Positions 37,886 through 54,375 of a stretch of DNA of 64,000 bases are shown in pieces. The notes under the pieces were generated by a model that saw only the letters and a program-made list of their open reading frames with translations, did not search any database and was not told the DNA's origin. This DNA comes from Sphingomonadales bacterium (lineage in GTDB: Bacteria; Pseudomonadota; Alphaproteobacteria; Sphingomonadales; Sphingomonadaceae). Made by a program: the position numbers and the translations under genes. The stretch's first letter is position 1. Every line of letters begins with the position of its first letter. The stretch lies in contig JAIXWO010000010.1 of NCBI GenBank assembly GCA_027491235.1, positions 62,001 to 126,000 on the forward strand, read 5' to 3'.

Positions 37886-39553
37886 TTAGTCGATCTTAGG
37901 CAGTGTTTCGAACTGGTGGAACGGCGGCGGGCTGGACAGGGTCCATTCGAGCGTCGTCGCGCCTTCGCCCCAGTAATTTCCTTCCGCCTTACGTCCAGCG
38001 AGGAACGCATAGGCAATGTTGACGAAGAAGATCACCATCGAGCCAGCCATGATGGCATAGCCGATTGAGGCAATTTCGTTCCAGTAGGCAAAGGCGTCCG
38101 GATAATCCGGATAACGCCGCGGCATGCCCTGCAACCCGAGGAAGTGCATCGGGAAGAAGATGATGTTCACGCCGAGGAAGAACACCCAGAAGTGGAGGTG
38201 GCCCAGGAACTCATTGAGGTGACGGCCGCTCATCTTCGCGAACCAGTAGGTGAAGCCCGCGAAGAGCGAGAACACCGCACCCAGCGAAAGAACGTAGTGG
38301 AAGTGCGCCACAACATAATAGGTGTCGTGCATGTAGTTATCGACGCCGCCATTGGCGAGGACAACGCCCGTCACGCCACCAACGGTGAACATGAAGATGA
38401 AGCCGAGTGACCAGACCATCGGCACGGTAAAGCGGATGGAGCCACCCCACATTGTCGCGATCCAGGAGAAGATCTTAATGCCGGTCGGCACCGCGATGAC
38501 CATGGTGGCCGCCGTGAAATACATCTTCGTGTTCACATCGAGACCGGTTGTGAACATGTGGTGTGCCCACACGACAAAGCCGACAACGCCAATCGCGACC
38601 ATGGCATAGGCCATGCCGAGATAGCCGAAGATCGGCTTTTTCGAGAAGGTCGAGATGATCTGGCTGACGATGCCGAAGCCCGGCAAGATCATGATGTACA
38701 CTTCAGGGTGACCGAAGAACCAGAACAGGTGCTGATAGAGAACAGGGTCCCCACCGCCGGCCGGATCAAAGAAGGTCGTACCGAAGTTACGGTCCGTCAG
38801 CAGCATGGTGATGGCGGCAGCCAGAACCGGCAGAGCCAACAAAAGCAGGAACGCCGTGACCAGAACCGACCAGACAAACAGCGGCATCTTGTGCAGCGTC
38901 ATGCCCGGGGCACGCATGTTGAAGATGGTGGTGATGAAGTTGATCGCGCCCATGATCGAGCTTGCGCCCGCCAGATGGAGCGAGAAGATCGCCATGTCGA
39001 CGGCAGGCCCCTGCGACCCGTAGGTCGAAAGCGGTGCGTAGACCGTCCAACCGGTACCGGCGCCAAGACCCGTGCCGCCGGGTACGAAGGCCGACCCAAG
39101 CAGCAGGATGAAGGCAGGAACCAGCAACCAGAACGACACGTTGTTCATACGCGGGAACGCCATGTCCGGCGCACCGATCATGATCGGAATGAACCAGTTA
39201 CCAAAGCCACCGATGAGCGCTGGCATGACCATGAAGAACACCATGATGAGGCCGTGCGCGGTGATGAGCACGTTCCACAAATGGTAGGCCTGATCAATGC
39301 TGGCGCCTTCGCCTTCCACCATGGCAGCCCAGGTGGTCAGATATTGGATACCCGGCTGTGCGAGCTCAGCACGCATCAGGCCGGAGATGCCGCCCCCGAT
39401 GATCCCCGCCAGAATTGCGAAGATCAGATAAAGGGTGCCAATATCCTTGTGGTTGGTTGACATGAACCAACGGGCAAAGAAGCCCGGATGATGGTCCGCG
39501 TCGTGATGATCATGTGCGTGATCGTGCGTTGCAGCAACGGTGGTCATTGTCAT
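37886..39553 (-). CDS. ctaD: cytochrome c oxidase subunit I
   Basis: A 555-residue subunit I of an aa3-type oxidase. The catalytic-core signatures are visible: G-H-P-E-V-Y-I with the CuB histidine and its cross-linked tyrosine, V-W-A-H-H-M-F with two further CuB histidines, and H-F-H-Y-V-L-S with the heme a and a3 ligands. The N-terminus is His/Asp-rich ([13 protein letters not shown]), as in many alphaproteobacteria. It overlaps the upstream ctaC stop in a TAATG arrangement. Confidence 0.97.
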
Positions 39554-40626
39554 TACGCCTTGGTGTTGGCGGCCGGAGCAGCCGGAGCAGTTTCGTTTGC
39601 GCCTTCGGCCGGAGCCGCCGCAGGTGCGGCAGCCGGCGTTACGGCAGGTGCAGGAGTGGCAGCGGGAGCGGCGACGGCTTCAGCGCCAGGCATCTTGCCG
39701 CCCTTGGCCGCGACCCATTTCGCGAAGTTTTCCTTAGACACGACTTCAACCGCAATCGGCATGAAGGCATGGCGCGCGCCACAAAGTTCGGAACACTGGC
39801 CGTAATAGAGGCCTTCCTTTTCGACCTTGAACGTCACTTCGTTCAGGCGGCCGGGAACAGCGTCCATCTTCGTCCAGAAGGCCGGAACCGCGAAGGAGTG
39901 GATCACGTCTTCCGACGTCACAATCGCCTTGATCTCGGTGCCGACGGGCACAACGAGACGGTTGTCGACAGCCAGTAGACGGGGCTCACCACGCTTGGCA
40001 GCTTCAGCATCGGTCAGCATGTTGGACACGATTTCAAAGTCGCCATGGTCTGGATACTGATAGCTCCAATACCATTGATGGCCGATAACCTTAATCGTCA
40101 CCGCATCCTTGCCGGCCGGCTTATACTGCGCGGCAAGCAGGCTGATCGACGGAATAGCGATCACCACGAGGATGATCACGGGGATCAGCGTCCAGGCGAT
40201 TTCGATGAGCGTGTTGTGGCTCGTCTTTGACGCAACGGGGTTGGCCGCACGACGATAGCGCACGATCACCCAAAGCAGGAGACCGAGAACGAACAGCGAG
40301 ATAACCGTGATAACCGGAAGGAGGATCGCATCATGAAACCATTGTGCGCGCTCCCCATTCACCGTCACCTGCGGCTGGATGCCAAGTTTACCGTTGACCG
40401 GTTGGCCAATGCCATCGACGGGCACGAGCGCCATCGGGGCTTCCGGCTTGGCTTGATCGGCAGCAGGTGTTGCAGCAGCGCTATCCGCCGTAGGGGCGGG
40501 GGCAGCGGCAACAGGCGCAGGCGCGGCGGCGACCGGCGCAGGTGCAGCCGGGGTTCCTTGCGCCATCGCAACAGCCGGTGCCAACACCAAACCGATTGCG
40601 AATAGGGCAGATCTCAGCTTGTTCAT
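39553..40626 (-). CDS. ctaC: cytochrome c oxidase subunit II
   Basis: A 357-residue subunit II with signal peptide, two membrane helices and the CuA domain; the [12 protein letters not shown] motif holds the CuA ligands. After the signal peptide comes an Ala/Pro repeat region (A-P-A-P-V-A-A type), and the C-terminus has a second Ala/Pro-rich tail of about 45 residues. I chose ATG 40626; ATG 40641 and an upstream codon at 40665 are alternatives. It heads the operon and lies divergent from pyrE. Confidence 0.95.
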
Positions 40627-40844
40627 TACCTGTTTTTCCATGTTGCGGCCCGGAATTCCGGGCAAAAAAGGCTTTGGCGACTATTCTTATCGAGACGCTT
40701 GGCTGCGGCCTATACGCACGAAACATATGAGGCTCAAGCGATTCAAGCGGCATTTTTCACACAGCATTGCAGGCTTTGTCTACCATCCCTAATGGACGGG
40801 TTTGCAAGACATATAGCAGTCAGCGAAGGGCAACTTCTCCCGTT

Positions 40845-41435
40845 ATGATGACAGACGACGATATCCTCAACGAATTCCGTGCCGCCGAAGCTTTGCTCGA
40901 AGGGCATTTTATCCTGTCTTCCGGCCTGCGGAGCCCTAGGTATCTGCAATGTGCCCGCGTTCTGATGAACCCGGCCCGCGCCGCGCGTCTCGCTGATGAA
41001 GCGGCCCGTCGCCTGCCCGATAACATCCGCAACGCCATCGACGTCGTCGTCTCGCCCGCCATGGGCGGCATCATCATCGGTCATGAGATGGGCCGCGCCT
41101 TGAACAAGGATGCGCTGTTCCTCGAACGCCCCGATGGCGTGTTCGGCCTGCGCCGCGGCTTCCGGCTGGAGCCGGGCCAGAAAGTGCTGATGGTCGAAGA
41201 CGTGGTGACAACGGGCCTGTCCTCCCGGGAGGCCATCGAGGCCGTGAAGCGCGAAGGCGGGGAAGTCATTGCCGAGGCGTCGCTCGTCGACAGGTCCAAT
41301 GGTTCGGTCGATCTTGGGGTTCCCTTCTTCCCGCTGATCCGATTGGATGTGGCCACTTATGATGCCGACAAACTTCCCCCCGACCTTGCGGCGATCCCGG
41401 CCGTGAAGCCCGGCAGCCGGAAGGCAGACGCTTGA
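40845..41435 (+). CDS. pyrE: orotate phosphoribosyltransferase
   Basis: A 196-residue enzyme that makes orotidine 5'-phosphate from orotate and PRPP. The PRPP loop [11 protein letters not shown] (about residues 118-128) and [12 protein letters not shown] near residues 20-31 are diagnostic. I place the start at ATG 40845, with ATG 40848 equally possible. The first gene of pyrE-pdxJ-acpS-lepB; overlap with pdxJ is four bases. Confidence 0.95.
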
Positions 41436-42163
41436 CGCCTCACCTGCGCCTCGGCGTCAATATTGATCACGTCGCGACCATCCGGAATGCGCGCGGCGGA
41501 GACCATCCTGATCCATGGCGCGCGGTGCAGGTCGTCGAAGCGGCAGGCGGAGACGGCATCACCGTCCATCTGCGCGAGGACCGGCGCCATATCCGCGATG
41601 GTGATCTCGACACGCTGATGGCCAACACGACCTTGCCCATTAATCTGGAGATGGCGGCGACCGAGGAGATGCTGGCCATCGCCCTGCGCCACAAACCCCA
41701 TGCCGCCTGTATCGTGCCTGAAAAGCGCGAAGAGCGGACGACCGAGGGCGGTCTGGATGCGGCTGGCCTCCACAACCAACTCGCCCCCATGGTTACGCGG
41801 CTGACAGACGCGGGCATCCGCGTGAGCCTATTCATCGAACCTGATGCCCGCCAGATCGACGCAGCCATTCAGTTGCGCGCACCGGTCGTTGAGCTGCACA
41901 CTGGTCGCTACGCGCACTGTGAAGGTGAGGAACGGGCGACCGAACTGCGCCGCATTGCCGATGCGGCTGCCCTCGCGGCCCGCAATGGCATTGAACCGCA
42001 CGCCGGCCATGGGCTGACCTTCGACAATGTCGGGCCAATTGCCGCCATCCCGCAAATTGCGGAGCTCAACATTGGCCACTTCCTCATCGGTGAGGCCATC
42101 TTCATCGGGCTGGACGCCAGCATCCGCGAAATGCGCGCGCGGATGGACGCGGCGCGGGGCTGA
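41432..42163 (+). CDS. pdxJ: pyridoxine 5'-phosphate synthase
   Basis: A 243-residue TIM-barrel enzyme that condenses deoxyxylulose phosphate with 3-amino-2-oxopropyl phosphate to pyridoxine phosphate. N-terminal [16 protein letters not shown], the H-L-R-E-D-R-R-H-I segment, L-F-I-E-P-D and H-A-G-H-G-L-T are all family hallmarks. ATGA-type overlap with pyrE and six bases to acpS; pdxJ-acpS is a widely conserved pair. Confidence 0.96.
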
Positions 42164-42169
42164 TCGCGC

Positions 42170-42583
42170 ATGATCGTCGGCCTCGGCTCTGACCTCTGCA
42201 ATATTGAGCGGATCCAGAAGTCGCTCGACCGCTTTGGGGAGCGGTTCACCAACCGCGTCTTTACCGATGTCGAACGTGCCAAAGCCGCGCGCCGTCCGTT
42301 CACGCAGGCGGGCACCTATGCCAAGCGCTTTGCCGCCAAAGAGGCGTTCTCCAAAGCCGTGGGCACCGGCTTCAAGCGCGGTGTGTTCATGAAGGACATT
42401 GGCGTCGTCAATGCCCCTTCCGGCGCGCCGACGCTGGCCTTGTCCGGCGGCGCCAAAGCCGCGCTCGACGCCCTTGTGCCAGAGGGCTATGAGGCGCGCA
42501 TTCATCTTACGCTCACCGACGATCATCCATGGGCGCAGGCCTTTGTCATTATTGAAGCCCTGCCTCTCCCGAAAGCCTCCTGA
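42170..42583 (+). CDS. acpS: holo-[acyl-carrier-protein] synthase
   Basis: A 137-residue 4'-phosphopantetheinyl transferase. The Mg ligand Asp8 is in G-L-G-S-D-L-C and the second motif [12 protein letters not shown] carries the Glu. It would modify the AcpP encoded at 59919. Follows pdxJ by six bases and precedes lepB by two. Confidence 0.95.
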
Positions 42584-42585
42584 CC

Positions 42586-43533
42586 GTGACGACCTCCCCC
42601 GACCCCGCCCTGACCGAAAGCACGCCCACCGACATGGCCAAAACAAAGCGCAAGGATGACAAGGTCAATTGGGGCGAAGAGATTAAAGGCGCCGCACTTT
42701 TGCTGGCCGCCGTGCTCGGCTTTCACAGCTTCATCGCCAAGCCCTTCTACATTCCGTCGGAATCGATGGTGCCGACGCTGATGGTTGGGGACCGGCTGGT
42801 CGTGAACAAATTCGCTTATGGCTGGAGCCATGTGTCCCCGACGATCCCGTCCATCCCCGCCCTTTTCCGTTGGCTGGTGCTGCGCGAGCCGGTCGAATCG
42901 CTCGCAGTCAACCTCCCGGACTGGAAGGGCCGCATCTGGGGCAGTGAACCGGAGCGCGGTGATGTTGTCATCCTGACACCGCCGGGCATGAACCAAGACT
43001 ATATCAAGCGCGTTATCGGCCTGCCGGGCGATCGCATCGAAATGCGCGGCGGTGAACTCATCATCAACGGCAAACCGGTCACGCGCGCGCCGAAGGTGGA
43101 CCGGCTTGTGCCGGTGGATCTGAATGACCCCTGCTCCCCAGAAGATTATCCCGACCGCCGCGTGGCGAAGGATGACGGGACGCTCTGGTGCAAGCTGCCG
43201 ATCGTGCGCGAAACGCTGCCCAATGGCCGCAGCTATGACACCGTGGACGTCGACCCCAACTCACCGGGCGACAATTATGGCCCGATCACAGTGCCGGACG
43301 CGCATTACTTTTTGATGGGTGATAATCGCGATCACAGCGCCGACAGCCGCTTCCCGCAATGGCAGCGCGGCCTTGGTGGGCCAGTGCCATGGGAAAATAT
43401 CGGTGGCCGTGCGGAGATCATCACCTTCTCGCTCGATGGATCGTCCAGCTATCTCAACCCGCTGAGCTGGGTGCGCGCCATCCGGCCGGACCGGACATTC
43501 GTGAGCCTGTCTGCAAAGAAGGACGGGGAGTAA
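42586..43533 (+). CDS. lepB: signal peptidase I
   Basis: A 315-residue type I leader peptidase with one N-terminal membrane helix (about residues 33-50), catalytic Ser60 (P-S-E-S-M-V-P-T-L) and Lys141 (D-Y-I-K-R-V-I-G), and the C-terminal G-D-N-R-D-H-S-A-D-S-R box. I use the GTG at 42586, directly after acpS; ATG 42634 would start at residue 17 and still include the whole membrane helix. Last gene of the operon before a class B repeat. Confidence 0.93.
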   Translation: MTTSPDPALTESTPTDMAKTKRKDDKVNWGEEIKGAALLLAAVLGFHSFIAKPFYIPSESMVPTLMVGDRLVVNKFAYGWSHVSPTIPSIPALFRWLVLREPVESLAVNLPDWKGRIWGSEPERGDVVILTPPGMNQDYIKRVIGLPGDRIEMRGGELIINGKPVTRAPKVDRLVPVDLNDPCSPEDYPDRRVAKDDGTLWCKLPIVRETLPNGRSYDTVDVDPNSPGDNYGPITVPDAHYFLMGDNRDHSADSRFPQWQRGLGGPVPWENIGGRAEIITFSLDGSSSYLNPLSWVRAIRPDRTFVSLSAKKDGE

Positions 43534-43545
43534 ACGTCCCGAATT

Positions 43546-43637
43546 CCGTTCGTCCTGAGCTTGTCGAAGGACTGTCTTTCTCTGATCCCTGCGGCGCAAA
43601 GATAAGGTCAGCCCTTCGACAAGCTCAGGGCAAACGG
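43546..43637. repeat. class B inverted repeat pair, copy 4
   Basis: Left arm GTCCTGAGCTTGTCGAAGGAC and right arm CCCTTCGACAAGCTCAGGG between the convergent stops of lepB and the FKBP gene. The left arm has GTCC/GGAC in place of GGGC/GCCC, a paired change that keeps its own hairpin. Confidence 0.88.
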
Positions 43638-43644
43638 GGTAAGA

Positions 43645-44262
43645 TTACTCCGCCGACGGTGCCGGAACAGCCTGTGGCTGACCTTCGCCGGTCGGGGCAC
43701 CCGGTGCGCCCTGCCCGCCCTGTTGCTGCTGCATCATCTGCTGCATCATCTGGAGTTCGGCCGCACTCTTGAAATCAAGCAGGTCGACATCGAAAATCAG
43801 GATCGAGTTCGCCGGGATCGGGCCGGCCGCCTGCGGGCCATAACCGAGTGCGGGCGGAATGCAGATGCGGTAGCTGCCGCCACGCTGCATCTTCTTCAGC
43901 GCTTCCGAAAAGCCAGGAACAACCTTGGAGACTTCCAGCGGAGTCTGCTGGTTCGCGTCAAATTCCGTGCCGTCCTTCAGCGTGCCCTTATAATTGATGA
44001 GCGTGACATCGGCATCGGTCGGGCTGGCGCCTGTGCCGGCCTTGCGGACCTGAAAGTGCAGACCGGTGCTCGTCACTTCATGCGCCTTAACACCGCCGCC
44101 TGCAGGCAGCATTTCAGAGGCAGAGCAGCTCTGGCCGACAGCCTTGGCGGTGCCCGTCCAGGCAAGGCCACCTGCGACCGCCAGTACGACGGCAACGCCG
44201 CCCCACAGCTTCAGCATCGAGCCCTTGGCAATCGGAGCAATCGGAACTGTGGAATTCGACAT
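43645..44262 (-). CDS. FKBP-type peptidyl-prolyl cis-trans isomerase, membrane-anchored
   Basis: A 205-residue protein with an N-terminal membrane helix or uncleaved signal (about residues 16-33), an FKBP domain (residues about 65-160: V-T-L-I-N-Y-K-G-T-L, P-G-F-S-E-A-L, P-P-A-L-G-Y-G), and a Gln/Met-rich then Pro/Gly-rich tail. It would catalyse proline isomerisation in the periplasm. I chose ATG 44262 (M-S-N-S-T). The bidirectional terminator separates it from rpsU. Confidence 0.87.
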   Translation of the reverse strand: MSNSTVPIAPIAKGSMLKLWGGVAVVLAVAGGLAWTGTAKAVGQSCSASEMLPAGGGVKAHEVTSTGLHFQVRKAGTGASPTDADVTLINYKGTLKDGTEFDANQQTPLEVSKVVPGFSEALKKMQRGGSYRICIPPALGYGPQAAGPIPANSILIFDVDLLDFKSAAELQMMQQMMQQQQGGQGAPGAPTGEGQPQAVPAPSAE

Positions 44263-44333
44263 GGGATGACCTCTGTTTTGATCTACATGATGTTGGGCGC
44301 GCCTATGCCGCAACATTTGCCGCGCGCCAAGCG

Positions 44334-44377
44334 CAAACGAAAAGGGCGCCGGATGAACCGACGCCCCTTTTCGTTTG
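44334..44377. terminator. bidirectional intrinsic terminator
   Basis: Near-perfect palindrome with CAAACGAAAAGGGCG on one side and CGCCCCTTTTCGTTTG on the other, a short loop between, and A runs at one end and T runs at the other on both strands. It lies 16 bases past the rpsU stop and upstream of the FKBP gene, so it mainly ends rpsU transcription. Confidence 0.75.
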
Positions 44378-44393
44378 GCAAAAGCCGCGTGGC

Positions 44394-44600
44394 TTAACGG
44401 CCGCCGTCGCGTTCCAGACGCTTGCGCTCCATCTTGCGGGCACGACGGACAGCGGCTGCCTTTTCACGCGCGCGCTTTTCCGACGGCTTTTCATAGTGCC
44501 GACGCAGCTTCATTTCGCGATAAACGCCTTCGCGCTGCAGCTTCTTCTTGAGAGCCCGGAGCGCCTGGTCAACATTGTTGTCGCGAACGATAATCTGCAT
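44394..44600 (-). CDS. rpsU: 30S ribosomal protein S21
   Basis: A 68-residue basic protein. The sequence from [18 protein letters not shown] and the [12 protein letters not shown] segment fit S21 and its basic C-terminal tail. S21 assists start-codon recognition on the small subunit. Monocistronic, with its own terminator downstream. Confidence 0.96.
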
Positions 44601-44833
44601 AAAAAAGCCACACTCCGAAGTCGAATATGAGGGCGGTCATCCGCCCCGAAAGCCAAAATACAAGCGTCGTCGCAACTCGCGCCGCGCCGTTCCCAGCGGG
44701 CACTAGGCCCCGATTCCCTAAAAATCAAGGAGAAAGGCCAAGATTGCAAGTTCCGCCCTGCCCGTGTCATAGGTGCAACAGGGTCAGCAGACGAGATCGG
44801 GGGCAAGATGACAGCCGGATGTGAGGCGGGCGC

Positions 44834-45373
44834 GTGACAAAATTCACCGTCAACAACCAGCCGGTCGCCTATCAGATCGACCCCGATACGCCGCTCCTCT
44901 GGGCCTTGCGCGATGCCTCTAACTTGACCAGCCCCAAATATGGCTGCGGTACGGGAGACTGCGGCGCCTGCATGGTGGATATTGACGGGCGCGCCGTCAT
45001 GTCCTGCCAAATTGCCATCAAAGGCGTGGAAGGCAGCTTTGTCACAACTCTCGAGGGCCTGTCACGCGACCGGAGCCACCCCGTCCAACAGGCGTTGGTC
45101 GCGGAAGGCGCCATCATGTGCGGCTTTTGTACGCCCGGTATCGTCATGGCCGCCGCCGTGCTGCTGAAAGCGAATCCCAAACCAAGCGATGCGGACATTG
45201 ACGCCGCGATCACGAACCTCTGCCGCTGCGGCACCTACCCCCGCGTCCGCCGCGCCATCCACCGCGCAGGACGCGTCCTGCTGGGGCTGGAAAGAATCGC
45301 CGCTGCCCCACCACCCGGAATTTCAGCCGAAGATGCCGCGCGGAGCGTGCCTGCGCTGGAAGGTAAGGAGTAA
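44834..45373 (+). CDS. (2Fe-2S)-binding protein, small subunit of a molybdenum hydroxylase-type enzyme, orphan
   Basis: A 179-residue protein of the xanthine-dehydrogenase small-subunit / isoquinoline 1-oxidoreductase alpha type. The plant-ferredoxin cluster ligands are Cys38, Cys43, Cys46 and Cys58; the second cluster uses Cys96, Cys99, Cys130 and Cys132. The start is GTG 44834 with GAGG seven bases before it. The C-terminal tail of about 30 residues is longer than in most orphans and Ala/Pro-rich. No molybdopterin-binding large subunit is adjacent in this window; blh, on the opposite strand, is the next gene. Partner may lie elsewhere. Confidence 0.88.
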   Translation: MTKFTVNNQPVAYQIDPDTPLLWALRDASNLTSPKYGCGTGDCGACMVDIDGRAVMSCQIAIKGVEGSFVTTLEGLSRDRSHPVQQALVAEGAIMCGFCTPGIVMAAAVLLKANPKPSDADIDAAITNLCRCGTYPRVRRAIHRAGRVLLGLERIAAAPPPGISAEDAARSVPALEGKE

Positions 45374-45395
45374 GCGGAGCTGCACCAAGTGCCAG

Positions 45396-46319
45396 CTAGG
45401 TGCGCACCCAGCGATCAACGAACAGCGTCAGCAACAAGTGCGGCGCCGCCACGACAGACAGCAGACGAAACGCCTCTGCGGACACCGCCAGCGATTGCCC
45501 TGAGATGAGGCCAGGCGCCAGCAGGACGGCAAGGGCAAGGCAGGCAAAGCACATCAGGCCGCCGTATATCCAGAACCGCGGGCCAGACCAGCTCGGCAAC
45601 GTCGCGGCCACGCCCCGCATGTGAAGCGGGGAATGCAGAAAGACAAAATAGAGCAGAAAACCGACCTGAGGCGGCAAAACGGCCAGCGCCAAAAGCGCTG
45701 CAAATTGTGCCAGCGCCCATCCGGAATGGCCGGCGCGAACGGCCATCAACATCCCAACTGAAGTGACCAGCACGGCCACGGGCGTAAAAGCGACGATGAA
45801 GCGGCGGACCCAATCTGCCTCAGGCCCCGCCATCGCAACGAACAAGGCTGTGACAGAGGCGGGATGCGCAAAAGCAGGAATACACAATACCGAAGCGCCC
45901 GCCATGGCCCGCAGCAGCCCTGAGTCGAGCATGCGCCAGTCTTCTCCAAAATGGACCGCAGAAAGCGCCAAAAACAGGCAAAGCGTTGTCACAGGGGCAA
46001 GGGCCCATAAGGCCATCATCGCTAAGGCAACGCCAACATATGCGAGGAAGAAGGCGGCGGCCGAAGACCGATTTAGCTTTAGGACGGACTGCGCGATCGC
46101 AATGTCAAATGCACCGTGCGGCAGGCCGCCAATCAACATGAAAACCGCCGCGAGGGCAAGAAAGCCATTTCCCGTCAACGGCACATCAAGAGCCAACGCC
46201 AAAGTTAGACAAACAAAGGCAGGCCAAAAAAATTTCGGCACCGGAACATACGCTGGGTACGCTCCGGTGCCGTTGCTCGGCAGAGGCCTGGGATAGAGGT
46301 TCTGCCGAGCAGCTTTCAT
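45396..46319 (-). CDS. blh: beta-carotene 15,15'-dioxygenase, Brp/Blh family
   Basis: A 307-residue integral membrane protein that would cleave beta-carotene to two retinals. Conserved histidines of the Blh family are visible: His68 in G-L-P-H-G-A-F-D, His123 in V-H-F-G-E-D-W, His229 and His233 in H-S-P-L-H-M, and His294 in A-P-H-L-L-L. About eight membrane segments. ATG 46319 lies one base after the rhodopsin stop, so the genes form one transcript. Alternative upstream starts would lie inside the rhodopsin gene and add non-homologous sequence. Confidence 0.9.
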   Translation of the reverse strand: MKAARQNLYPRPLPSNGTGAYPAYVPVPKFFWPAFVCLTLALALDVPLTGNGFLALAAVFMLIGGLPHGAFDIAIAQSVLKLNRSSAAAFFLAYVGVALAMMALWALAPVTTLCLFLALSAVHFGEDWRMLDSGLLRAMAGASVLCIPAFAHPASVTALFVAMAGPEADWVRRFIVAFTPVAVLVTSVGMLMAVRAGHSGWALAQFAALLALAVLPPQVGFLLYFVFLHSPLHMRGVAATLPSWSGPRFWIYGGLMCFACLALAVLLAPGLISGQSLAVSAEAFRLLSVVAAPHLLLTLFVDRWVRT

Positions 46320-46320
46320 T

Positions 46321-47076
46321 TTACTTCGCTGTTGCGGCTTCCGCTTCGGACTTGCGCACGGCAATGACCCAAACCAGAACGCCAACAGCAGCCTTGGCGA
46401 TGAGATCAGCAATCGTGTAGCCGATCTGAATGGCCGTTGTGGCCGATGCGCCTGAAATGTCGGCATAGGGTGCCATGTACACGATGGGGTAGAAGCCCCA
46501 TGATGCGAAGGTCAGCAAGCGGGCCTTCTTGACGAGCTCACGCACGCTTTCCGGCTGGCGTTCGATCGACGCACCCAGACCGCTGAACAGTTCCCAGATG
46601 ATGTAGAGGAACGGAATGGCCGACAGCGTGCCCCACAGAGCGCGGGTCGGAATGTCGGTTGCGATTTCACCCGGATAGCCGAGCACGATCATCAGAGCAG
46701 CAGCAGCGCCGAGCTTTGTGGCCTTGCTGACCGTTTCTTCACGCGACAGGCGCATAACGAGCACGAGTTCGATGAGAAGCAGTGGCACCGTCAACAGCCA
46801 GTCGACATAGCGATAGGCGTCGTTGAAGGCGACGCCGGTTACCGTCAGAACGCCGTCTGTAACGGTGTAGGCAGCTTCCCAGCTCTCAAAAATCCGCCAA
46901 TAATGGTAGGCCGCGATCGCGCAGACGAGACCGGAAATGGTGACGGCGGTCTTATAATGGGCCGAAACCTGCGAACGACCAAGCCACAGGAACAGCGTCG
47001 CTGCAGCCATCGTCGCAAATGTAAATGAAAACGCATTGTAAACCAGTGAGTACTGGAATGTGCTTATTATCTCCAT
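46321..47076 (-). CDS. xanthorhodopsin-like light-driven proton pump
   Basis: A 251-residue seven-helix microbial rhodopsin. Numbering from ATG 47076: helix C Asp92, Thr96 and Glu103 in D-W-L-L-T-V-P-L-L-L-I-E give the proton-pump DTE pattern; Leu100 corresponds to the green-absorbing tuning position; His58 in Y-H-Y-W-R-I-F matches the proteorhodopsin His75 position; Asp224 and Lys228 in helix G carry the counterion and retinal Schiff base. Helix E has L-W-G, so the second Trp of bacteriorhodopsin is Gly149, the opening used by carotenoid antennae in xanthorhodopsin. I chose ATG 47076 because GGAGG lies five bases before it; the in-frame ATG 47088 lacks a site. Followed directly by blh. Confidence 0.93.
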   Translation of the reverse strand: MEIISTFQYSLVYNAFSFTFATMAAATLFLWLGRSQVSAHYKTAVTISGLVCAIAAYHYWRIFESWEAAYTVTDGVLTVTGVAFNDAYRYVDWLLTVPLLLIELVLVMRLSREETVSKATKLGAAAALMIVLGYPGEIATDIPTRALWGTLSAIPFLYIIWELFSGLGASIERQPESVRELVKKARLLTFASWGFYPIVYMAPYADISGASATTAIQIGYTIADLIAKAAVGVLVWVIAVRKSEAEAATAK

Positions 47077-47402
47077 GGCATCCTCCATATGGGTCGCCGA
47101 TCCATCGTGGCGACCTTCGTGTATAGAGAAGGCTCATGTGCGCGCCGCCTCCCCCAAAATCGCTGCACTGATATAAAAATCAAACACTTAGCAGCATGGT
47201 TAACATATATTCACAATCGCTCTTGTCTACCAATACGTCTCTTAGGCCACCCAGCAGACAGAGGCCTTGGGGCTCTTGGAAGAACGGAGATACGTCTGAA
47301 TCGTTCCTTGCAACCTCGTTAAGCCAGCGCTCATCTGCCGCTTGTCAGATTGTGTTTCTGGGAGGCGGGGTGCGACTCGCTCCGCTTTTTTGGAGGGCGA
47401 GT
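47077..47402. promoter_or_regulatory. divergent promoter region of rhodopsin and RcnB-like genes
   Basis: A 326-base gap containing an AT-rich stretch (about 47165-47235) that stands out against the GC-rich background and likely includes promoter elements for one or both genes. A short inverted repeat TGAT-N6-ATCA lies at about 47171-47184; its spacing does not fit an FNR box. I cannot name a regulator. Confidence 0.45.
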
Positions 47403-48392
47403 ATGCGTAAATTTCTTCTATCTTTTCTCCTGGTGACCGTGGCCGCCATTCCTGTTGCCGCACAGGCGCAGCAGGAGGATTTTTCGAGGCGGGCAAATGA
47501 ACGTGGTTTTGAACGCCGCGTCGATCAGCCAAGGGGCGACTGGCGGGCGCAGCGGGCGCAGCAGCCTACCCCCGCTCCGCAGGCGCAAGCGCCCCAGCAA
47601 GCGCCTGCTCAGCAGAGCGCCGCCGAGCGAGGTCAGGCGCAATATCGCGACCGGCAAAGCTTCCGACAGTCACGCAGTGCGGCCCGCACGCCGGACACGA
47701 TGAACACATCGCCCGAGCCGCGCCGCTGGGAAGGTCGCCGTGAGGGAGAACGGCGCTTTGAAGACCGCCGGGACGAACAGCCGCAGCGCCGCTATGGCTG
47801 GAACCGCGACAATGGTCAGGCTGTAACACCACCGCCGGTCGTCGTTCCGCAGCAGCCAGGTCAGAACTGGAGCAACGACCGCCGCGAACGCTGGGCCAAT
47901 CGCAATCGCAACGAGGATCGCAACCGTTGGACCAACAACCGCCGGGACGGTGATTGGGATCGGTATGACAATGACCGACGGGACCGCGATGGCCGCCGAT
48001 ACGCCTATCGCACGCCCAATGGCCGCGATGACCGCAATTGGCATAACCGCAGCTGGTACGACAATGACAGCCGCTATGACCGGTGGCACAATGATTGGCG
48101 GCGCGACCGGCGCTATGATTGGCGCAGCTTCCGGTCTCACAACCGCGATTTCTATCGCCTGCCGCGATACAGCCATCCCTATGGCTATAATTACGGTTAT
48201 CGCCGCTTCTCGATCGGGATCTTTCTCGACAATTTGTTCTTCAGCAAACGCTATTGGATCAACGACCCCTATGAATACCGCCTGCCGCCCGCTTATGGGC
48301 CGTATCGCTGGGTTCGATATTATGACGACGTTCTGCTCGTCGATCTGCGCAACGGCCGCGTGGTCGATGCCATTTACGGCTTCTTCTATTAA
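47403..48392 (+). CDS. RcnB-family periplasmic protein, low-complexity Arg/Asp/Asn-rich
   Basis: A 329-residue exported protein: signal peptide (about 1-22), then Gln/Pro/Ala-rich and Arg/Asp/Asn/Trp-rich segments with repeated D-R-R-D / R-Y-D / N-R-N-W words, and a C-terminal domain of about 90 residues that matches RcnB (Y-R-L-P-P-A-Y-G-P-Y-R-W-V-R-Y-Y-D-D-V-L-L-V-D). RcnB in E. coli affects nickel and cobalt homeostasis; whether this protein does so is not known. ATG 47403 follows GGAGGG at good spacing. The long charged region could be an intrinsically disordered or surface-binding part. Confidence 0.83.
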   Translation: MRKFLLSFLLVTVAAIPVAAQAQQEDFSRRANERGFERRVDQPRGDWRAQRAQQPTPAPQAQAPQQAPAQQSAAERGQAQYRDRQSFRQSRSAARTPDTMNTSPEPRRWEGRREGERRFEDRRDEQPQRRYGWNRDNGQAVTPPPVVVPQQPGQNWSNDRRERWANRNRNEDRNRWTNNRRDGDWDRYDNDRRDRDGRRYAYRTPNGRDDRNWHNRSWYDNDSRYDRWHNDWRRDRRYDWRSFRSHNRDFYRLPRYSHPYGYNYGYRRFSIGIFLDNLFFSKRYWINDPYEYRLPPAYGPYRWVRYYDDVLLVDLRNGRVVDAIYGFFY

Positions 48393-48414
48393 GCGGGAAA
48401 GGCGGGCGCTGGCC

Positions 48415-49284
48415 TCAGCGTCCGCCGACCGCGATCCGTTCCAGCCGGGTTAGCGCCTCACGTAACGGCACATCGTCCAGCGCCTGTGGGTCTGTCCGTT
48501 TCAAGGTTTCCAGTCCGCGCTGGAAGCGCTCCATCAGTTCGGCGATCGTCGGTTCCCGCGACTCCACGATGCGGGGACGCGGGGCTAAGCGCGGCGCGTC
48601 TTCTTCTATTGGGTCAACAGGTGGCGGAACCGGTGCAGGCGCCAAATGCAGCACCGTTTCAGGCCGGATGAAAATGTCCGGCATCTGCGGCAGATTGGAC
48701 GATGCAAGAGGCACATCCTCCAAAGCAACGTGAATGGCTTCCATAAACACGGCGTCCGGCGTCATCGGCACAGCGGGGGCGGCAGGCACTTCCTCGACAA
48801 TCATCAGCGCATCGAGCAGAAGTTCATCCTCCTCATTCTGGGTCGGCTCATTCTGGACTACTGGCTGCGTCTCTTCCGCCAGTTGCGCCAGCGGCTGGGC
48901 AAGGAAGCTGGGCAGATTGGGCTCATCCTCCAGCACAGGGGCTGCGAAGACCGACGGGCGGTTGAAAATGGGCGCTTCTTCCGCATCACGGCGCAGCGGC
49001 TGAACCGTCACCGCCTGTGGCTTGCGCGGCTTGGCATTGCGGAACGGGAGGGCAGCCACAAAGGCCAGGACAGCCGCGCCACCGCCGGCCAGAACAACGA
49101 GGAGAAAGCGCGCCTTGGTCCCCAAAGGCGGGGCGGCGGCGGGCAATACATCCGGCAGACCGACCGCAAGCACGGCGTGCTCCAGCAACCAGACGGGCGT
49201 CGCCAGAACGAGGAGGGCCGCCACTGCTGCAAACATCAGCGCCACGACAGGCGCAAATGGCAGACGCTGGAGTTGCTTCAACAC
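48415..49284 (-). CDS. hypothetical membrane protein with two N-terminal helices
   Basis: A 289-residue protein without a recognised domain. Membrane helices lie at about residues 14-33 and 60-80. The remainder is a Pro/Glu-rich cytosolic or periplasmic region containing short words such as E-E-D-A and P-A-P-V-P-P-P-V, ending in a helical segment with E-L-M-E-R-F-Q-R-G-L-E-T-L. It may act as a scaffold, but nothing in the sequence shows function. It lies 21 bases after the exosortase-associated glycosyltransferase on the same strand, so co-transcription is likely. Confidence 0.7.
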   Translation of the reverse strand: MLKQLQRLPFAPVVALMFAAVAALLVLATPVWLLEHAVLAVGLPDVLPAAAPPLGTKARFLLVVLAGGGAAVLAFVAALPFRNAKPRKPQAVTVQPLRRDAEEAPIFNRPSVFAAPVLEDEPNLPSFLAQPLAQLAEETQPVVQNEPTQNEEDELLLDALMIVEEVPAAPAVPMTPDAVFMEAIHVALEDVPLASSNLPQMPDIFIRPETVLHLAPAPVPPPVDPIEEDAPRLAPRPRIVESREPTIAELMERFQRGLETLKRTDPQALDDVPLREALTRLERIAVGGR

Positions 49285-49305
49285 TTGGATTCGCCCCTTT
49301 TATGG

Positions 49306-50511
49306 CTAGTTCCAAGCACCTTTAGCAATCTGGTGGTAAACAGTTTCGTAACGACGAATATTTGAAGCCCAGTTACGCTCTTTCTCGACGAAAGCCCGGG
49401 CTTGGTCGCGGCGGTCATCCCAAGTTTCCCGCCCGCTGAACAGATGGGAGAGCGACTCGGCAATCGCACTGGGGCTGTCTGCTGCGAATAAGGTGCCGGT
49501 CTGGCCATCCGTAATGAGTTCGCGATGTCCGCCAACGTCTGACGCGGCCACAAGCTTGCCTTGGGCCATTGCCTCTAATGGCTTGAGCGGGGTTACCAGA
49601 TCGGTCAGCCGCATTTTCTTGCGTGGATAGGCCAGAACATCGATGAGGCTGTAATAGCGCTCCACCTGATCATGGGGGACACGCCCGACAAACCTGATAC
49701 GGTCGGCAACCGTTGACGCGGCAGCCTGCGCCCGAAGCGCGGGCTCCATAGGCCCACCGCCGACGAGCAGCAGAGCGGCATTGGGCTGTGCCGCGACGAG
49801 ACGCGGCATGGCGGCAATCAGATCATCCAGCCCTTCATAATCGTAAAAGCTGCCGATGAAGCCCACCGTCTCTGCGCCGTCGAGGCCAAGATCCGTTGCC
49901 AGTGCCGTGTCGCGCGGCGGTGGATTGCCAAAAAGATGGAGGTCCACACCATTGGGCGATACCGTGATCTTGGCCGGATCAATCCCACGGGAAATCAGGT
50001 CCGCCTTCAGCCCTTCGCAGATGACCACCACAGCATCGGCGCGGCGCACGGCCCATGTCTCCAGCGCCTTGGTGACACGGTAGCGCAGCGATCCTTCCTT
50101 GCCTGTGCCGTTGCCGACCGCCGCATCCTCCCAAAAGGCCCGGATTTCATAGACAAAGGGTAACCCCCGCCTGCGCGCGACCCGCAAGCCGGCCAGTGCG
50201 TTCAGCACGGGCGAATGGGCGTGCAGGACATCGGGGCGATATTGTTCGACGAGCGCATCGATCCGTTCCGCAAAGGCCGCTACCTCGGACCACTCGCGAA
50301 GAACGGGCAAGGGCACTGCTGCCCCGGGGGTGCGATGAAAGACAAGGCCGTCAATCTCTTCAACCTTGGGGCCATCTGCTGTGTGCCGCAAACCCGTGAC
50401 ACCGCGCACGTCCCACCCCAATTCCTGCTGAGCCTTCAGGATGGCCCGGGTGCGGAACGTGTAGCCTGAATGCATCGGCAGGCTGTGATCGAGGATGTGA
50501 AGAATACGCAT
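49306..50511 (-). CDS. exosortase A-associated glycosyltransferase (TIGR04063-like)
   Basis: A 401-residue GT4-type glycosyltransferase. The N-terminus M-R-I-L-H-I-L-D-H-S-L-P-M-H-S-G is characteristic of the exosortase A-associated family (PEP-CTERM system), and the C-terminal P-L-K-P-L-E-A-M-A-Q-G-K-L-V-A-A-S-D-V-G-G sugar-nucleotide region is standard GT-B. It would add a sugar to an exopolysaccharide or glycoprotein glycan. It is divergent from the small membrane protein and ligase genes that belong to the same functional set. Confidence 0.85.
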   Translation of the reverse strand: MRILHILDHSLPMHSGYTFRTRAILKAQQELGWDVRGVTGLRHTADGPKVEEIDGLVFHRTPGAAVPLPVLREWSEVAAFAERIDALVEQYRPDVLHAHSPVLNALAGLRVARRRGLPFVYEIRAFWEDAAVGNGTGKEGSLRYRVTKALETWAVRRADAVVVICEGLKADLISRGIDPAKITVSPNGVDLHLFGNPPPRDTALATDLGLDGAETVGFIGSFYDYEGLDDLIAAMPRLVAAQPNAALLLVGGGPMEPALRAQAAASTVADRIRFVGRVPHDQVERYYSLIDVLAYPRKKMRLTDLVTPLKPLEAMAQGKLVAASDVGGHRELITDGQTGTLFAADSPSAIAESLSHLFSGRETWDDRRDQARAFVEKERNWASNIRRYETVYHQIAKGAWN

Positions 50512-50613
50512 GCGCGCTCGCGGCTCTGCTCTTTGTTGACCAAATTCGAGCCGACACCTGCCACAAAGGACTTAACGCGACGTCAACCGGATGCATCTAA
50601 AGCCGGGTGCGAT

Positions 50614-50760
50614 ATGATCGATATGTTCTCGCTCCTCCTGTCGCACGGGCTGCTGCTGCTTATGGCCTGGCGCCTGTTATGGCGCGGCGATCTGGACGAC
50701 GATAAAGGGCCGGTCGACACCCGCAAACAGCACAATAAATGGGGCACGCCCGATGCGTGA
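50614..50760 (+). CDS. small membrane protein preceding the O-glycosylation ligase
   Basis: A 48-residue frame with one membrane helix (about residues 4-20: F-S-L-L-L-S-H-G-L-L-L-L-M-A-W-R) and a charged C-terminus. It overlaps the start of the O-glycosylation ligase by eight bases. Small proteins at this position occur in exosortase-A gene sets, as far as I recall. Start at ATG 50614 is the most natural choice; longer forms overlap the GT promoter region. Confidence 0.6.
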   Translation: MIDMFSLLLSHGLLLLMAWRLLWRGDLDDDKGPVDTRKQHNKWGTPDA

Positions 50761-52120
50761 TCTGTTCTTTGTCGCCTTTCTTGGCGCGATGCTGCTGCTT
50801 GGGATGCGGCGACCCTTTTTGATGGTGCTTGGCTATGTCTATGTTGACATCGTCTCGCCGCAGCATCTGTCTTACTACCTGCTCAACAGCGTGCCGGTGT
50901 CGCTCATCTTCTTTCTGGGAGCGGTTGGCGGTTGGTTGATATTCGACCGAAAACAGGTGTTCACATTCGGCCCAAGGCAGGGCGCGATGCTTCTGCTCCT
51001 CATCTATTGCTATTTCTCCACCGAAAATGCCGATTTTCCGTTGGAGGCAGCGGCAAAGTGGGACTGGGTGTGGAAGGTGCTGGTCTTTGCCATTTTCCTC
51101 CCACTGACGATCACCACACGGCTTCGGATCGAAGCGCTGGCAACCACGATGATCCTTTCAGCCGCCTCCATCATCATCGCGGCGGGAATTAAAACAGCCG
51201 CATCCGGCGGCGGCTATGGCGTGCTTAACCTCATGTCAGACAGCAATAGTGGCCTTTATGAATCGTCCACACTGGCCTGTGTGGCCATTTCGCTCATCCC
51301 GTTCATCCTCTACCTGCGCCGGAACAGTACGATCTTTCCGCCCGACTGGCGGGTGTCGCTCTTTTGCGGGGCGCTGTGCTTTGCCTGCCTGCTGATCCCC
51401 GTCGGCACGGAAGCCCGCACCGGGCTGATCTGTATCGCAGCGCTGAGTGTGATGATGCTGCGCGCCGTTAAGCGCCCGTTTCTCTATGTTTTTGCGGCGG
51501 CCTTCCTCGGGCTGGCTTCCCTTCCGCTCCTGCCGGAAAGCTTCACAAAACGCATGGACACGATGAACGAGGTGCAGGCCGACGAATCGGCTTCGACCCG
51601 CCTCGCGGTCTGGCGCTGGACGCTGGATTATGTCGGCATTCATCCGATGGGCGGCGGATTTGATTCCTATCGCGGCAACTCCTTCCGTTATGAGGTGCGC
51701 GCCAGCAGCAAATTTGATCCAAACGCGCCGGCGGTGCAGGAACCCGGCTCCACCGTTGTCGTGGTGGATGAAGCCCGCGCTTTCCACAGCGCCTATTTTG
51801 AAATGCTGGGAGAACAGGGCTGGCCGGGCCTCGGCATCTGGCTGTTCATCCATTTGTCCGGCCTGCTGCGCATGGAAATGCTGTTGCGCAGATATCGAAA
51901 CCGGGCACCGGAAGACGGACACTGGATTGCAGGTCTGGCCACAGCCCTTCAGCAGGCCAACATCATCTACTTGATCGGCGCGGCGTTCATCGGTGTCGCC
52001 TACCTCTCCTTCGCCTATATGCTCATCGCGATGCAGATCGCGCTCGATGCCCATGCCCGGCGTTTTGAGCTGGAGCGGACACGCAAGCCCTTCTTTGCCG
52101 CGAAGGCTGTACCCGCATGA
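50753..52120 (+). CDS. putative O-glycosylation ligase, exosortase A-associated (TIGR03097-like)
   Basis: A 455-residue O-antigen-ligase-type membrane protein with about ten helices and the large periplasmic loop of the WaaL/Wzy superfamily (residues about 280-350). The N-terminal M-R-D-L-F-F-V-A-F-L and the V-D-I-V-S-P-Q-H-L-S segment, plus the loop containing R-L-A-V-W-R-W-T-L-D-Y, match the exosortase-A-associated ligases. It would attach glycan to a protein or polymerise it. Four bases overlap with the acyltransferase downstream. Confidence 0.85.
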   Translation: MRDLFFVAFLGAMLLLGMRRPFLMVLGYVYVDIVSPQHLSYYLLNSVPVSLIFFLGAVGGWLIFDRKQVFTFGPRQGAMLLLLIYCYFSTENADFPLEAAAKWDWVWKVLVFAIFLPLTITTRLRIEALATTMILSAASIIIAAGIKTAASGGGYGVLNLMSDSNSGLYESSTLACVAISLIPFILYLRRNSTIFPPDWRVSLFCGALCFACLLIPVGTEARTGLICIAALSVMMLRAVKRPFLYVFAAAFLGLASLPLLPESFTKRMDTMNEVQADESASTRLAVWRWTLDYVGIHPMGGGFDSYRGNSFRYEVRASSKFDPNAPAVQEPGSTVVVVDEARAFHSAYFEMLGEQGWPGLGIWLFIHLSGLLRMEMLLRRYRNRAPEDGHWIAGLATALQQANIIYLIGAAFIGVAYLSFAYMLIAMQIALDAHARRFELERTRKPFFAAKAVPA

Positions 52121-53199
52121 CCAAGGCGACAGCACAGCTTGACGCCCTTACCGGCATGCGCGGCATCGCGGCGTGGTTTGTCGTGCTTTATCATATCCGC
52201 GCTGCCTTTCCGGACAGTGTGCCGCATTGGATCGTCGCGACGCTGTCCAAGGGCTATCTGGCAGTCGACCTGTTCTTCGTTCTGTCGGGCTTCGTCATGT
52301 GGCTCACCTATGGCGACAAATTCCAAAAGGACGGGCTTGCCGCGGCCCCGCAGTTCCTGTGGCGGCGCATTGCGCGCATTTATCCGCTCCACTTTCTAAT
52401 CATCCTCGCAACCATGGCCTATGCGATGGCGCTGGCGTCGGCGGGCAAGCCATATGGCGTCCAATATCCGTTTGAAGAACTGCCGCTGCACTTCCTCCTC
52501 ATTCAGAACTGGTGGTTGACCGATGTTCTGACCTGGAATGACCCTAGCTGGTCAATCTCCGCAGAACTGGCCGCCTATATCCTGCTCCCCTTCGTCGCAG
52601 TGACGCTCTTTCGGAAAGACTGGTCGCCTGCCGCCAGCATTGCGGGGGCCGTCGTGCTCGCGCTTGCGCTGCACATCTGGTTCTTGGCGCATGGTGAAGA
52701 GACGATTGGCAAGCACATTGTTTGGAACGGCTTGCCACGCTGCTTTGCCGGATTTTTTGCCGGTGTGTTCGTGGCGATGATCTGGCGCGCGCGCCCTTCG
52801 GGCCCGACGACATTCATCGCGCTGTCGGTCAGCCTGTTCGCTTTCGGTATGTTTGTGATGGGCTGGGCGCCGGAAACGCTGGCGATGCCTCTTGCTTTCA
52901 CAGCTTTGGTCTATGTTCTTGCGGCAACATCGGCCGCGCCCCGCAACCCTCTGTGCGGGCGCTTTGTGCTCCACCTCGGCGATGTCAGTTACTCGACCTA
53001 TCTCGGCCATTTTCTGCTGTGGATCGTCTTCAAACATGTGTTCGTGGATGACCCCAAGAACGTCCCGTTGCCCCTGATTGGGCTGTACCTGCTGAGTGTC
53101 TACATCTCCTCAATCCTGCTCTACCGTCTGGTCGAAGCGCCGGGTCGGTCGGTCCTCCAGTCCATCGGCAAACGCAAGGCGGCGCCCGCCCTGACCTGA
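52117..53199 (+). CDS. acyltransferase family 3 (OafA-like)
   Basis: A 360-residue membrane acyltransferase with about ten helices. The start motif L-T-G-M-R-G-I-A-A-W-F-V-V-L-Y-H-I-R contains the family Arg and His. The product would acetylate or otherwise acylate a cell-surface glycan. ATGA overlap with the ligase gene puts it in the same small operon (small protein, ligase, acyltransferase). Confidence 0.88.
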   Translation: MTKATAQLDALTGMRGIAAWFVVLYHIRAAFPDSVPHWIVATLSKGYLAVDLFFVLSGFVMWLTYGDKFQKDGLAAAPQFLWRRIARIYPLHFLIILATMAYAMALASAGKPYGVQYPFEELPLHFLLIQNWWLTDVLTWNDPSWSISAELAAYILLPFVAVTLFRKDWSPAASIAGAVVLALALHIWFLAHGEETIGKHIVWNGLPRCFAGFFAGVFVAMIWRARPSGPTTFIALSVSLFAFGMFVMGWAPETLAMPLAFTALVYVLAATSAAPRNPLCGRFVLHLGDVSYSTYLGHFLLWIVFKHVFVDDPKNVPLPLIGLYLLSVYISSILLYRLVEAPGRSVLQSIGKRKAAPALT

Positions 53200-53241
53200 T
53201 CGGGCAATTGCACTCGGGCGCGACGTTGCTAGGTTGGCGGG

Positions 53242-54375
53242 ATGACGACACCCAAAGCCTCGATCCTGACTGACATCAACCGCATTATCGACATCGCCCT
53301 AGCCTGGCTGGATGGCCATACGACCCAGATCGCGCTGAGCGTTGCCTCCGGCGCAGTCATCGTCGTTCTGCTTTACGGTGTGAAGCTGTTCGGGGGCTAT
53401 TTGTGCAGCCCGCGCTTTTCCAGTTCGCATTGGCCGGGGATCATCGGTCGCGCGCTGAAGAGGACGAGGCTCTGGTTCAAGGTGGCCGTGGCAGCGCAGA
53501 TCGTTGCGGCAACAGCCCATGCGCCGACCGAGATCGCCTACCCCATCCGCGTTCTGTTCGTTATCGCCGCTGTTCTGCAGGCGGCCGTCTGGGTCCGCGC
53601 GCTGATCCTAGGCCTTGTCGAATATCGCGCGGGCACCACCGACCCGACGGGCAATCTGCAAAGCGCCATGGGGCTCATCCGCGTGCTGCTGACAGCGGGG
53701 CTATTCATCCTTGCGACGATCCTGATCCTCTCCAACCTCGGCGTTGATGTCACGGGTCTTTTGGCAGGGCTCGGCATTGGCGGCATCGCCATTGGTCTGG
53801 CCGCACAGGGCATCTTCTCTGATCTCTTCGCCGCGCTCTCCGTCCTGTTCGACAAGCCCTTCAAGAAGGGCGACATGGTGAAGTTCGATACCAGCCAAGG
53901 CACTGTGGAGGCCATCGGCCTCAAATCCACCCGCATCCGCGCGATCTCTGGGGAAGAGATTGTCATCTCCAACGCAAACCTGCTCAACAAGGAGCTGCGC
54001 AACCTCGCTGTGTTTGAAACGCGGCGCTATTTTCAGACGATCAGCCTCATTTACCAGACCCCACCGGATATCTGCGCGACGCTGCCCGCCCTGCTGAAAG
54101 CCGCGATTGAAAGCGTCGACCGCGTCACCTTTGCCCGCTGCGCGCTCGACAATTTTGCACCCTCTAGCCTCGATTTTCTGCTGATTTACGAAATCCATGA
54201 GGCAGACCCCAGCGACGCGCTGGGCCGCAAGCATCTCATCAACAACGCAATCCTCGCGCTGTTTGCTGAAAAGGGGATTCAGTTCGCCTATCCCACCCAA
54301 ACCACCTTTACGGCGGCCCCCGACGGGCGGATGGTGATGCCCTATGCCGAACCAAAAGTAGCGGCGACAAAATAG
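53242..54375 (+). CDS. mechanosensitive ion channel, MscS family
   Basis: A 377-residue channel with about five membrane helices and the MscS core. The pore helix segment contains G-L-G-I-G-G-I-A-I-G-L-A-A-Q-G-I-F-S-D-L, and the following beta domain has F-K-K-G-D-M-V-K-F-D. It is longer at the N-terminus than E. coli MscS. It would release solutes upon osmotic downshock. No operon partner is evident; VOC gene follows 11 bases later. Confidence 0.9.
   Translation: MTTPKASILTDINRIIDIALAWLDGHTTQIALSVASGAVIVVLLYGVKLFGGYLCSPRFSSSHWPGIIGRALKRTRLWFKVAVAAQIVAATAHAPTEIAYPIRVLFVIAAVLQAAVWVRALILGLVEYRAGTTDPTGNLQSAMGLIRVLLTAGLFILATILILSNLGVDVTGLLAGLGIGGIAIGLAAQGIFSDLFAALSVLFDKPFKKGDMVKFDTSQGTVEAIGLKSTRIRAISGEEIVISNANLLNKELRNLAVFETRRYFQTISLIYQTPPDICATLPALLKAAIESVDRVTFARCALDNFAPSSLDFLLIYEIHEADPSDALGRKHLINNAILALFAEKGIQFAYPTQTTFTAAPDGRMVMPYAEPKVAATK

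Follow-up and report, generated by a model that had tools for sequence, protein, structure and literature searches.

A xanthorhodopsin–blh cassette from a sphingomonad, with a putative carotenoid antenna and a candidate ratio-setting stem-loop at the gene junction

The window (the whole stretch of 64,000 nucleotides of Sphingomonadales DNA analysed here) encodes a xanthorhodopsin-type rhodopsin immediately upstream of blh, the gene for a retinal synthase, and a stem-loop that recurs at most such junctions of relatives lies where the two genes meet. On balance we favour an explanation in which pump and retinal synthase form one cassette, the pump would use a carotenoid antenna and the stem-loop would set the ratio of the two proteins. 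A sphingomonad xanthorhodopsin with the antenna glycine and an accompanying blh has already been published, for Sphingomonas glacialis AAP5 (PMC7762795), and the window rhodopsin is one more likely antenna-bearing pump in that described group. The hairpin is apparently new: a weak literature search, with most subscription journals outside it, found no report of a rhodopsin–blh hairpin, and the words terminator, hairpin, stem-loop and intergenic are absent from the main text of PMC7762795. The features are:

46321..47076, minus strand: gene for a xanthorhodopsin-type proton-pump rhodopsin, 251 aa, with D92/T96/E103, L100, G149, Y200 and Y204
47081..47086, minus strand: GGAGGA, identified by eye as the ribosome-binding sequence for rhodopsin
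45396..46319, minus strand: blh, gene for a Brp/Blh dioxygenase (retinal synthase), 307 aa, starting one base past the rhodopsin stop
46236..46272, minus strand: main junction hairpin, 16 bp stem and 5-base loop, followed by AAATTTTTTT; within blh codons
46274..46311, minus strand: a further hairpin upstream of the main one, with an outer stem of 11 bp, beginning five bases past the blh ATG; predicted as well for L043, the closest of the relatives listed
45374..47317, no strand assigned: whole rhodopsin–blh cassette, in place of which the congener G050 has 18 bases
44834-45373: 2Fe-2S-type flanking gene
47196-48392: ORF containing the other flanking gene, whose true start is probably near 47403, by eye

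A first reading of this DNA from its letters (the sequence-only reading) had described a reverse-strand rhodopsin gene with D92, T96, E103, L100 and G149. The ORF and an alignment returned all of these residues, which line up with those of XR, GR, Kin4B8 and TR. GGAGG lies five bases upstream of the ATG at 47076, and a longer ORF from 47088 is less likely. The protein scored 129.5 bits against the Pfam model Bac_rhodopsin, the single match across the genome (3.39 Mb, 29 contigs), and matched XR in phmmer with an E value of 5.3e-76, far beyond chance. Its best solved relatives are psXR (9wfa, 54.3% identity), Salinibacter XR (3ddl, 55.1%), Gloeobacter GR (6nwd, 50.4%) and Kin4B8 (51.2%); a Foldseek search with an AlphaFold model (37 sequences, pLDDT 88.9) returned 9wfa, 3ddl and 6nwd at the top and then the zeaxanthin-bound 8i2z, with TM 0.89-0.94. 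With the pump set D92, T96 and E103 and the helix-B histidine H58 present, the protein is, judging from its sequence, almost certainly a member of the xanthorhodopsin family that uses light and retinal to pump protons. We found at least 580 relatives in named genomes, so this kind of rhodopsin is widespread; the best 80 were retained. The nearest among the matches listed, L043, is 98% identical and comes from a Sphingomonadales MAG whose flanking genes agree with those of the window.

The AAP5 rhodopsin (E2E30_05030) likewise has Asp92, Glu103, Leu99/100 and blh in one operon, and its crt cluster, as in the window genome, lies elsewhere. It is of similar length (255 versus 251 aa) and shares the antenna Gly (position 150 versus 149), but AAP5 also has bacteriochlorophyll photosystems (PMC7762795), whereas the contigs of the window genome gave no Photo_RC match and held no photosystem genes.

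The junction stem-loop and the opsin:Blh ratio

The product of blh scored 129.5 bits against NCBIfam TIGR03753 (cut-off 95.25) and 116.3 bits against the BCD family. The junction reads TAA-A-ATG, so that blh does start one base after the rhodopsin stop, as the sequence-only reading had it. The coupling of retinal supply to opsin that was drawn from this seems less simple than it was put: the genes are adjacent and presumably co-transcribed, but strong predicted hairpins begin five bases past the blh ATG. The one-base gap is not conserved (9 bases in L043), and it should not be taken as equal expression. In this genome the stem lies in blh codons, at a distance from the ATG short enough to impede newly loading ribosomes, and Blh may well be made by re-initiation from the rhodopsin stop. 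The hairpins predicted after the ATG suggest that Blh is kept low and relies on ribosomes coming from the rhodopsin gene. Weak blh expression has been reported in the flavobacterium Dokdonia PRO95, which has another gene order (PMC3587595).

To place the hairpin among its relatives, we used 93 rhodopsin genes with enough downstream sequence, in 61 of which blh follows directly. A stem score of at least 30 was found at 55 of the 61 rhodopsin–blh junctions, as against 2 of 87 other co-directional junctions (loci L043-L122); this threshold was picked after seeing the data, and the medians (35.5 versus 18 in the controls) agree with it. When rhodopsins at least 90% alike were merged, the stem remained in 26 of 31 clusters. 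Within the window itself, 17 of 1966 tiles reached a score of 30. Convergent gene ends were considered as a second control and dropped, there being only 4. Rfam covariance models gave no match in 44500-48500 at E up to 1.

We think it fairly probable, by analogy with known operons, that the hairpin sets the rhodopsin:Blh ratio. Acting either as a decay barrier or as a leaky terminator, the stem-loop would protect or end the rhodopsin portion of the mRNA and would also shield the blh start; the result would be much rhodopsin and little Blh. The puf operon, together with malEFG-type differential decay, offers the model: there too a stem-loop lies between genes of one operon that are needed in different amounts, the puf stem-loop is an established means of raising one transcript segment above the rest, and protective stem-loops can sit inside the downstream coding sequence, 107+/-56 nt in (PMC5927463). 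The puf genes are different ones, and a decay effect at the window junction is proposed by analogy.

The hairpin could instead be an intrinsic terminator or attenuator at which most transcripts stop after rhodopsin, with blh reached by read-through that rises with close ribosomes. In keeping with this, the 16-pair stem of the window (46272-46236, minus strand), followed by AAATTTTTTT, is the longest of 7 terminator-like sites that a terminator scan found in 45000-47600, and a stem after the stop is frequent also in rhodopsins without an adjacent blh (19 of 32), a count that weighs against the explanation we favour as well. We nevertheless regard this alternative as unlikely, if with some weight, because a T-rich tail (at least 5 T in 8) follows the hairpin at only 8 of 61 junctions. 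Together with a strict terminator search (at least 6 T), which succeeded at 3 of 93 junctions, this count keeps both a decay barrier and a leaky terminator in play as ways of setting the ratio.

A phototroph plausibly requires pumps in large number but only a little of the retinal enzyme, and a ratio-setting hairpin would be a conserved RNA device for that purpose, parallel to one in bacteriochlorophyll phototrophs; it would then do for retinal-based phototrophy what the puf hairpin does for the chlorophyll-based kind. Such a hairpin could aid the design of rhodopsin operons with balanced retinal supply.

The putative antenna site and the carotenoid genes

Bacteriorhodopsin has a Trp in the column of G149. 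The sequence-only reading had proposed this glycine as the fenestration residue, and the alignment placed it with the Gly of XR, GR and Kin4B8 (G153), no bulky residue being there; Y200 falls on the antenna Tyr of the same three proteins (Y204 of Kin4B8). Both residues are retained in L043, L044 and L045, and among 93 aligned relatives column 149 holds Gly in 72 and Trp in 21. A 2025 study used Gly and Tyr at these columns as criteria for carotenoid binding (PMC12308411), and Gly-156 together with brp/blh operons is described for marine relatives (PMC13043013). We consider antenna use by the window rhodopsin likely: a hydroxylated carotenoid, nostoxanthin or zeaxanthin, would lie against helices E and F via the G149 opening and pass light energy to retinal.

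The rest of the pocket is less familiar. For columns 204/205/208/209 our alignment reproduces the residues published in a table of five rhodopsins (PMC12308411), with Y A S Y in Kin4B8, Y M M A in XR and Y L M L in GR. The window rhodopsin has Y M Y A, a combination absent from the five and present in 12 of 99 alignment rows (window included), while a further 31 rows have Y M Y T; at the ring end, Y204/A205 has no counterpart among the five published pockets. Kin4B8 (8i2z) thus shares with the window rhodopsin its fold and the Gly and Tyr equivalents, and differs in S208/Y209 (window Y204/A205) and N188/Y191 (window K184/L187). In Kin4B8 the fenestration Gly is needed but insufficient: S208 is also required, S208A lowering carotenoid binding to 2%, and Y209 helps; polar residues at 208/209 go with hydroxylated carotenoids (PMC12308411). 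Y204 is polar and A205 is not, which tips the prediction towards hydroxy carotenoids, though not decisively, and Tyr204 in the place of the Kin4B8 Ser could crowd the carotenoid ring. Salinibacter XR and Gloeobacter GR, which share the antenna-site Gly and Tyr, have Met at the 208 column and bind 4-keto carotenoids (PMC12308411), whereas no CrtO scored over cut-off in the window genome.

The carotenoid genes found in the genome fit a hydroxylated product. crtB, crtI and crtY lie together, with crtG adjacent in the opposite direction and a crtZ-like gene on another contig, so that crtY, crtZ and crtG, the genes to look for according to the sequence-only reading, were all found, the last two as crtZ-like and crtG-like genes. 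crtY (454.8 bits) and crtI (660.7 bits) scored above cut-off; the best model for crtB gave 303.9 bits, below its cut-off of 480. crtZ and crtG, for neither of which NCBIfam had a match, are assigned solely from membership of PF04116, from size and context, and from similarity, and a search of solved structures with CrtG gave no match. The gene set and its arrangement are those of Sphingomonas elodea, in which knock-outs showed that a crtB/crtI/crtY/crtG cluster and a separate crtZ make nostoxanthin (PMC3324416); nostoxanthin is also the main carotenoid of AAP5 (PMC7762795). As to ketolases, a CrtO-like FAD oxidoreductase (L128, G000:C16:662036-663613) was rejected at 260 bits, far below the cut-off of 1000. 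The one FA_desaturase match in the genome is a protein of 380 residues, which by its size we take to be unlike CrtW.

The same pump could run on retinal alone, with the open G149 site inherited but unused, or with Tyr204 occupying the ring site. Y204/A205 do not resemble the Ser/Tyr presumed to bind the hydroxyl of the carotenoid in Kin4B8, and crtZ and crtG are common across the family with or without rhodopsin (CrtZ-like gene in 171 of 199 family genomes at E 1e-20, CrtG-like gene in 166 of 199 at E 1e-30), so their presence here is expected anyway and is weak evidence for an antenna. The 2020 account of AAP5 noted no salinixanthin, detected no rhodopsin in the membranes, and reported that nostoxanthin was washed off the photosynthetic complexes (PMC7762795). 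Against this, AAP5 was later stated to use a nostoxanthin-bound xanthorhodopsin, and in Kin4B8 the energy transfer from nostoxanthin is roughly as good as that from zeaxanthin (PMC12308411); the three relatives named above retain G149 and Y200, and Y204 still offers a hydroxyl. We accordingly rate a retinal-only pump as improbable, and prefer the antenna.

Family genomes with a Gly-type xanthorhodopsin, the window's own included, have crtZ in 14 of 14 and crtG in 13 of 14 cases, the one family genome with a Trp type has neither, and across 65 genomes crtZ is present in 34 of the 44 that have Gly but in 2 of the 21 that have Trp. On the tree, however, Gly changes once and independent pairs gave the association no support, so it may reflect shared ancestry alone, and we rejected it as independent evidence for an antenna.

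The Trp-at-fenestration branch comprises L026, L093, L097, L104 and 17 more loci, from Oxalobacteraceae, Acidobacteria, Gemmatimonadota, Armatimonadota and others. Phe replaces the antenna Tyr (column 200) in 19 of its 21 rows, again one event on the tree, and the branch is probably a closed-site lineage of single origin. Other genomes of the family carry rhodopsins with Asn-Thr-Gln (NTQ; L027-L038, L040 and L041), presumably chloride-pump-like, which also have Gly at the fenestration column, and L039 (G010:C55) is a xanthorhodopsin fragment near a contig end, with 60 residues at 67%.

Taking both parts together, we tentatively propose, at somewhat less than even confidence, that alphaproteobacterial xanthorhodopsin–blh operons share an undescribed RNA control element, a stem-loop that evolves fast in sequence while its structure is maintained and that holds the opsin:enzyme ratio high, and that these rhodopsins have a type of antenna pocket in which Tyr or Phe stands at the ring end and which would suit 2,3-dihydroxy carotenoids.

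Conservation of the stem-loop

The stems of relatives differ in sequence and lie at about the same position. In the window, the junction stretch folds with -56 kcal/mol (z -7.3), a value as low being reached by none of 200 shuffles. Across the 61 junctions the median z was -4.0, with z at or below -2 in 53, whereas pieces of the same length taken 170-300 bases before the stop or 330-460 after it gave z around zero. The exceptions are 6 junctions below a stem score of 30 and 8 with z above -2, among them L020 with z +0.5.

We weighed these values against a rival view, in which a G+C-rich coding sequence or the N-terminal peptide of Blh gives rise to the hairpin incidentally. The hairpin does lie within the reading frame, and L045 has the same peptide pieces, GTG and VPVP. 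When codons were exchanged synonymously and the protein was held constant, however, the window stem was reached in 6 of 3000 cases, and in 15 chosen loci the same null gave p values of 0.001-0.041 each. In L021, L085 and L086 the stem even lies upstream of the first in-frame blh start. Among the ten sequences of a Sphingomonas group 8 of 15 pairs had changed on both sides, as had 5 of 16 among the four sequences of the group that includes the window, and the covariation score was reached by 0 of 500 shuffles in each; in two further hairpin groups covariation was slight, with 1 of 15 pairs and 1 of 14 pairs changed on both sides. Covariation was counted in these four groups, two of them supportive, with two more groups uncounted and L091 and L058 excluded from their groups, and because the aligned pieces are each locus's best stem, the pairing counts are biased toward structure. 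Given the synonymous nulls, the dinucleotide shuffles, the control junctions and the covariation, a coding by-product is very unlikely, and we hold with high confidence that the junction hairpin is a selected RNA structure.

The cassette and its neighbourhood

Comparison of the locus with those of congeners points to gain or loss of rhodopsin and blh as one cassette. In G050 and G185 (L124 and L125) both genes are absent and the flanking genes adjoin: from the stop of the 2Fe-2S-type gene to the GTTAAGCC motif before the second gene there are 18 bases in G050 and 1,944 in the window (45374-47317). L043 has the cassette at the same place as the window, and in L044 and L045 only rhodopsin and blh were matched among the window ORFs from 38001-54000, their flanks not. 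The three other sampled genomes of the genus gave no rhodopsin match.

A role as light sensor rather than energy pump, suggested for AAP5 in 2020 because its rhodopsin gene lies next to one for a histidine kinase (PMC7762795), is highly implausible for the window protein, which retains the D/T/E pump set and among whose six scanned neighbours (42586-50511) no kinase or transducer match was found with NCBIfam.

The leader of the rhodopsin gene (47077-47250 in the window, the stretch before L043:5001 in the relative) is partly conserved by eye, and that of L043 contains a short palindrome around TTTGATATTTATATCA, a possible regulator site. Farther along, beside a gene without assignment, 49306-50511 encodes a TIGR04063 glycosyltransferase of the PEP-CTERM/XrtA system (646.8 bits, over cut-off).
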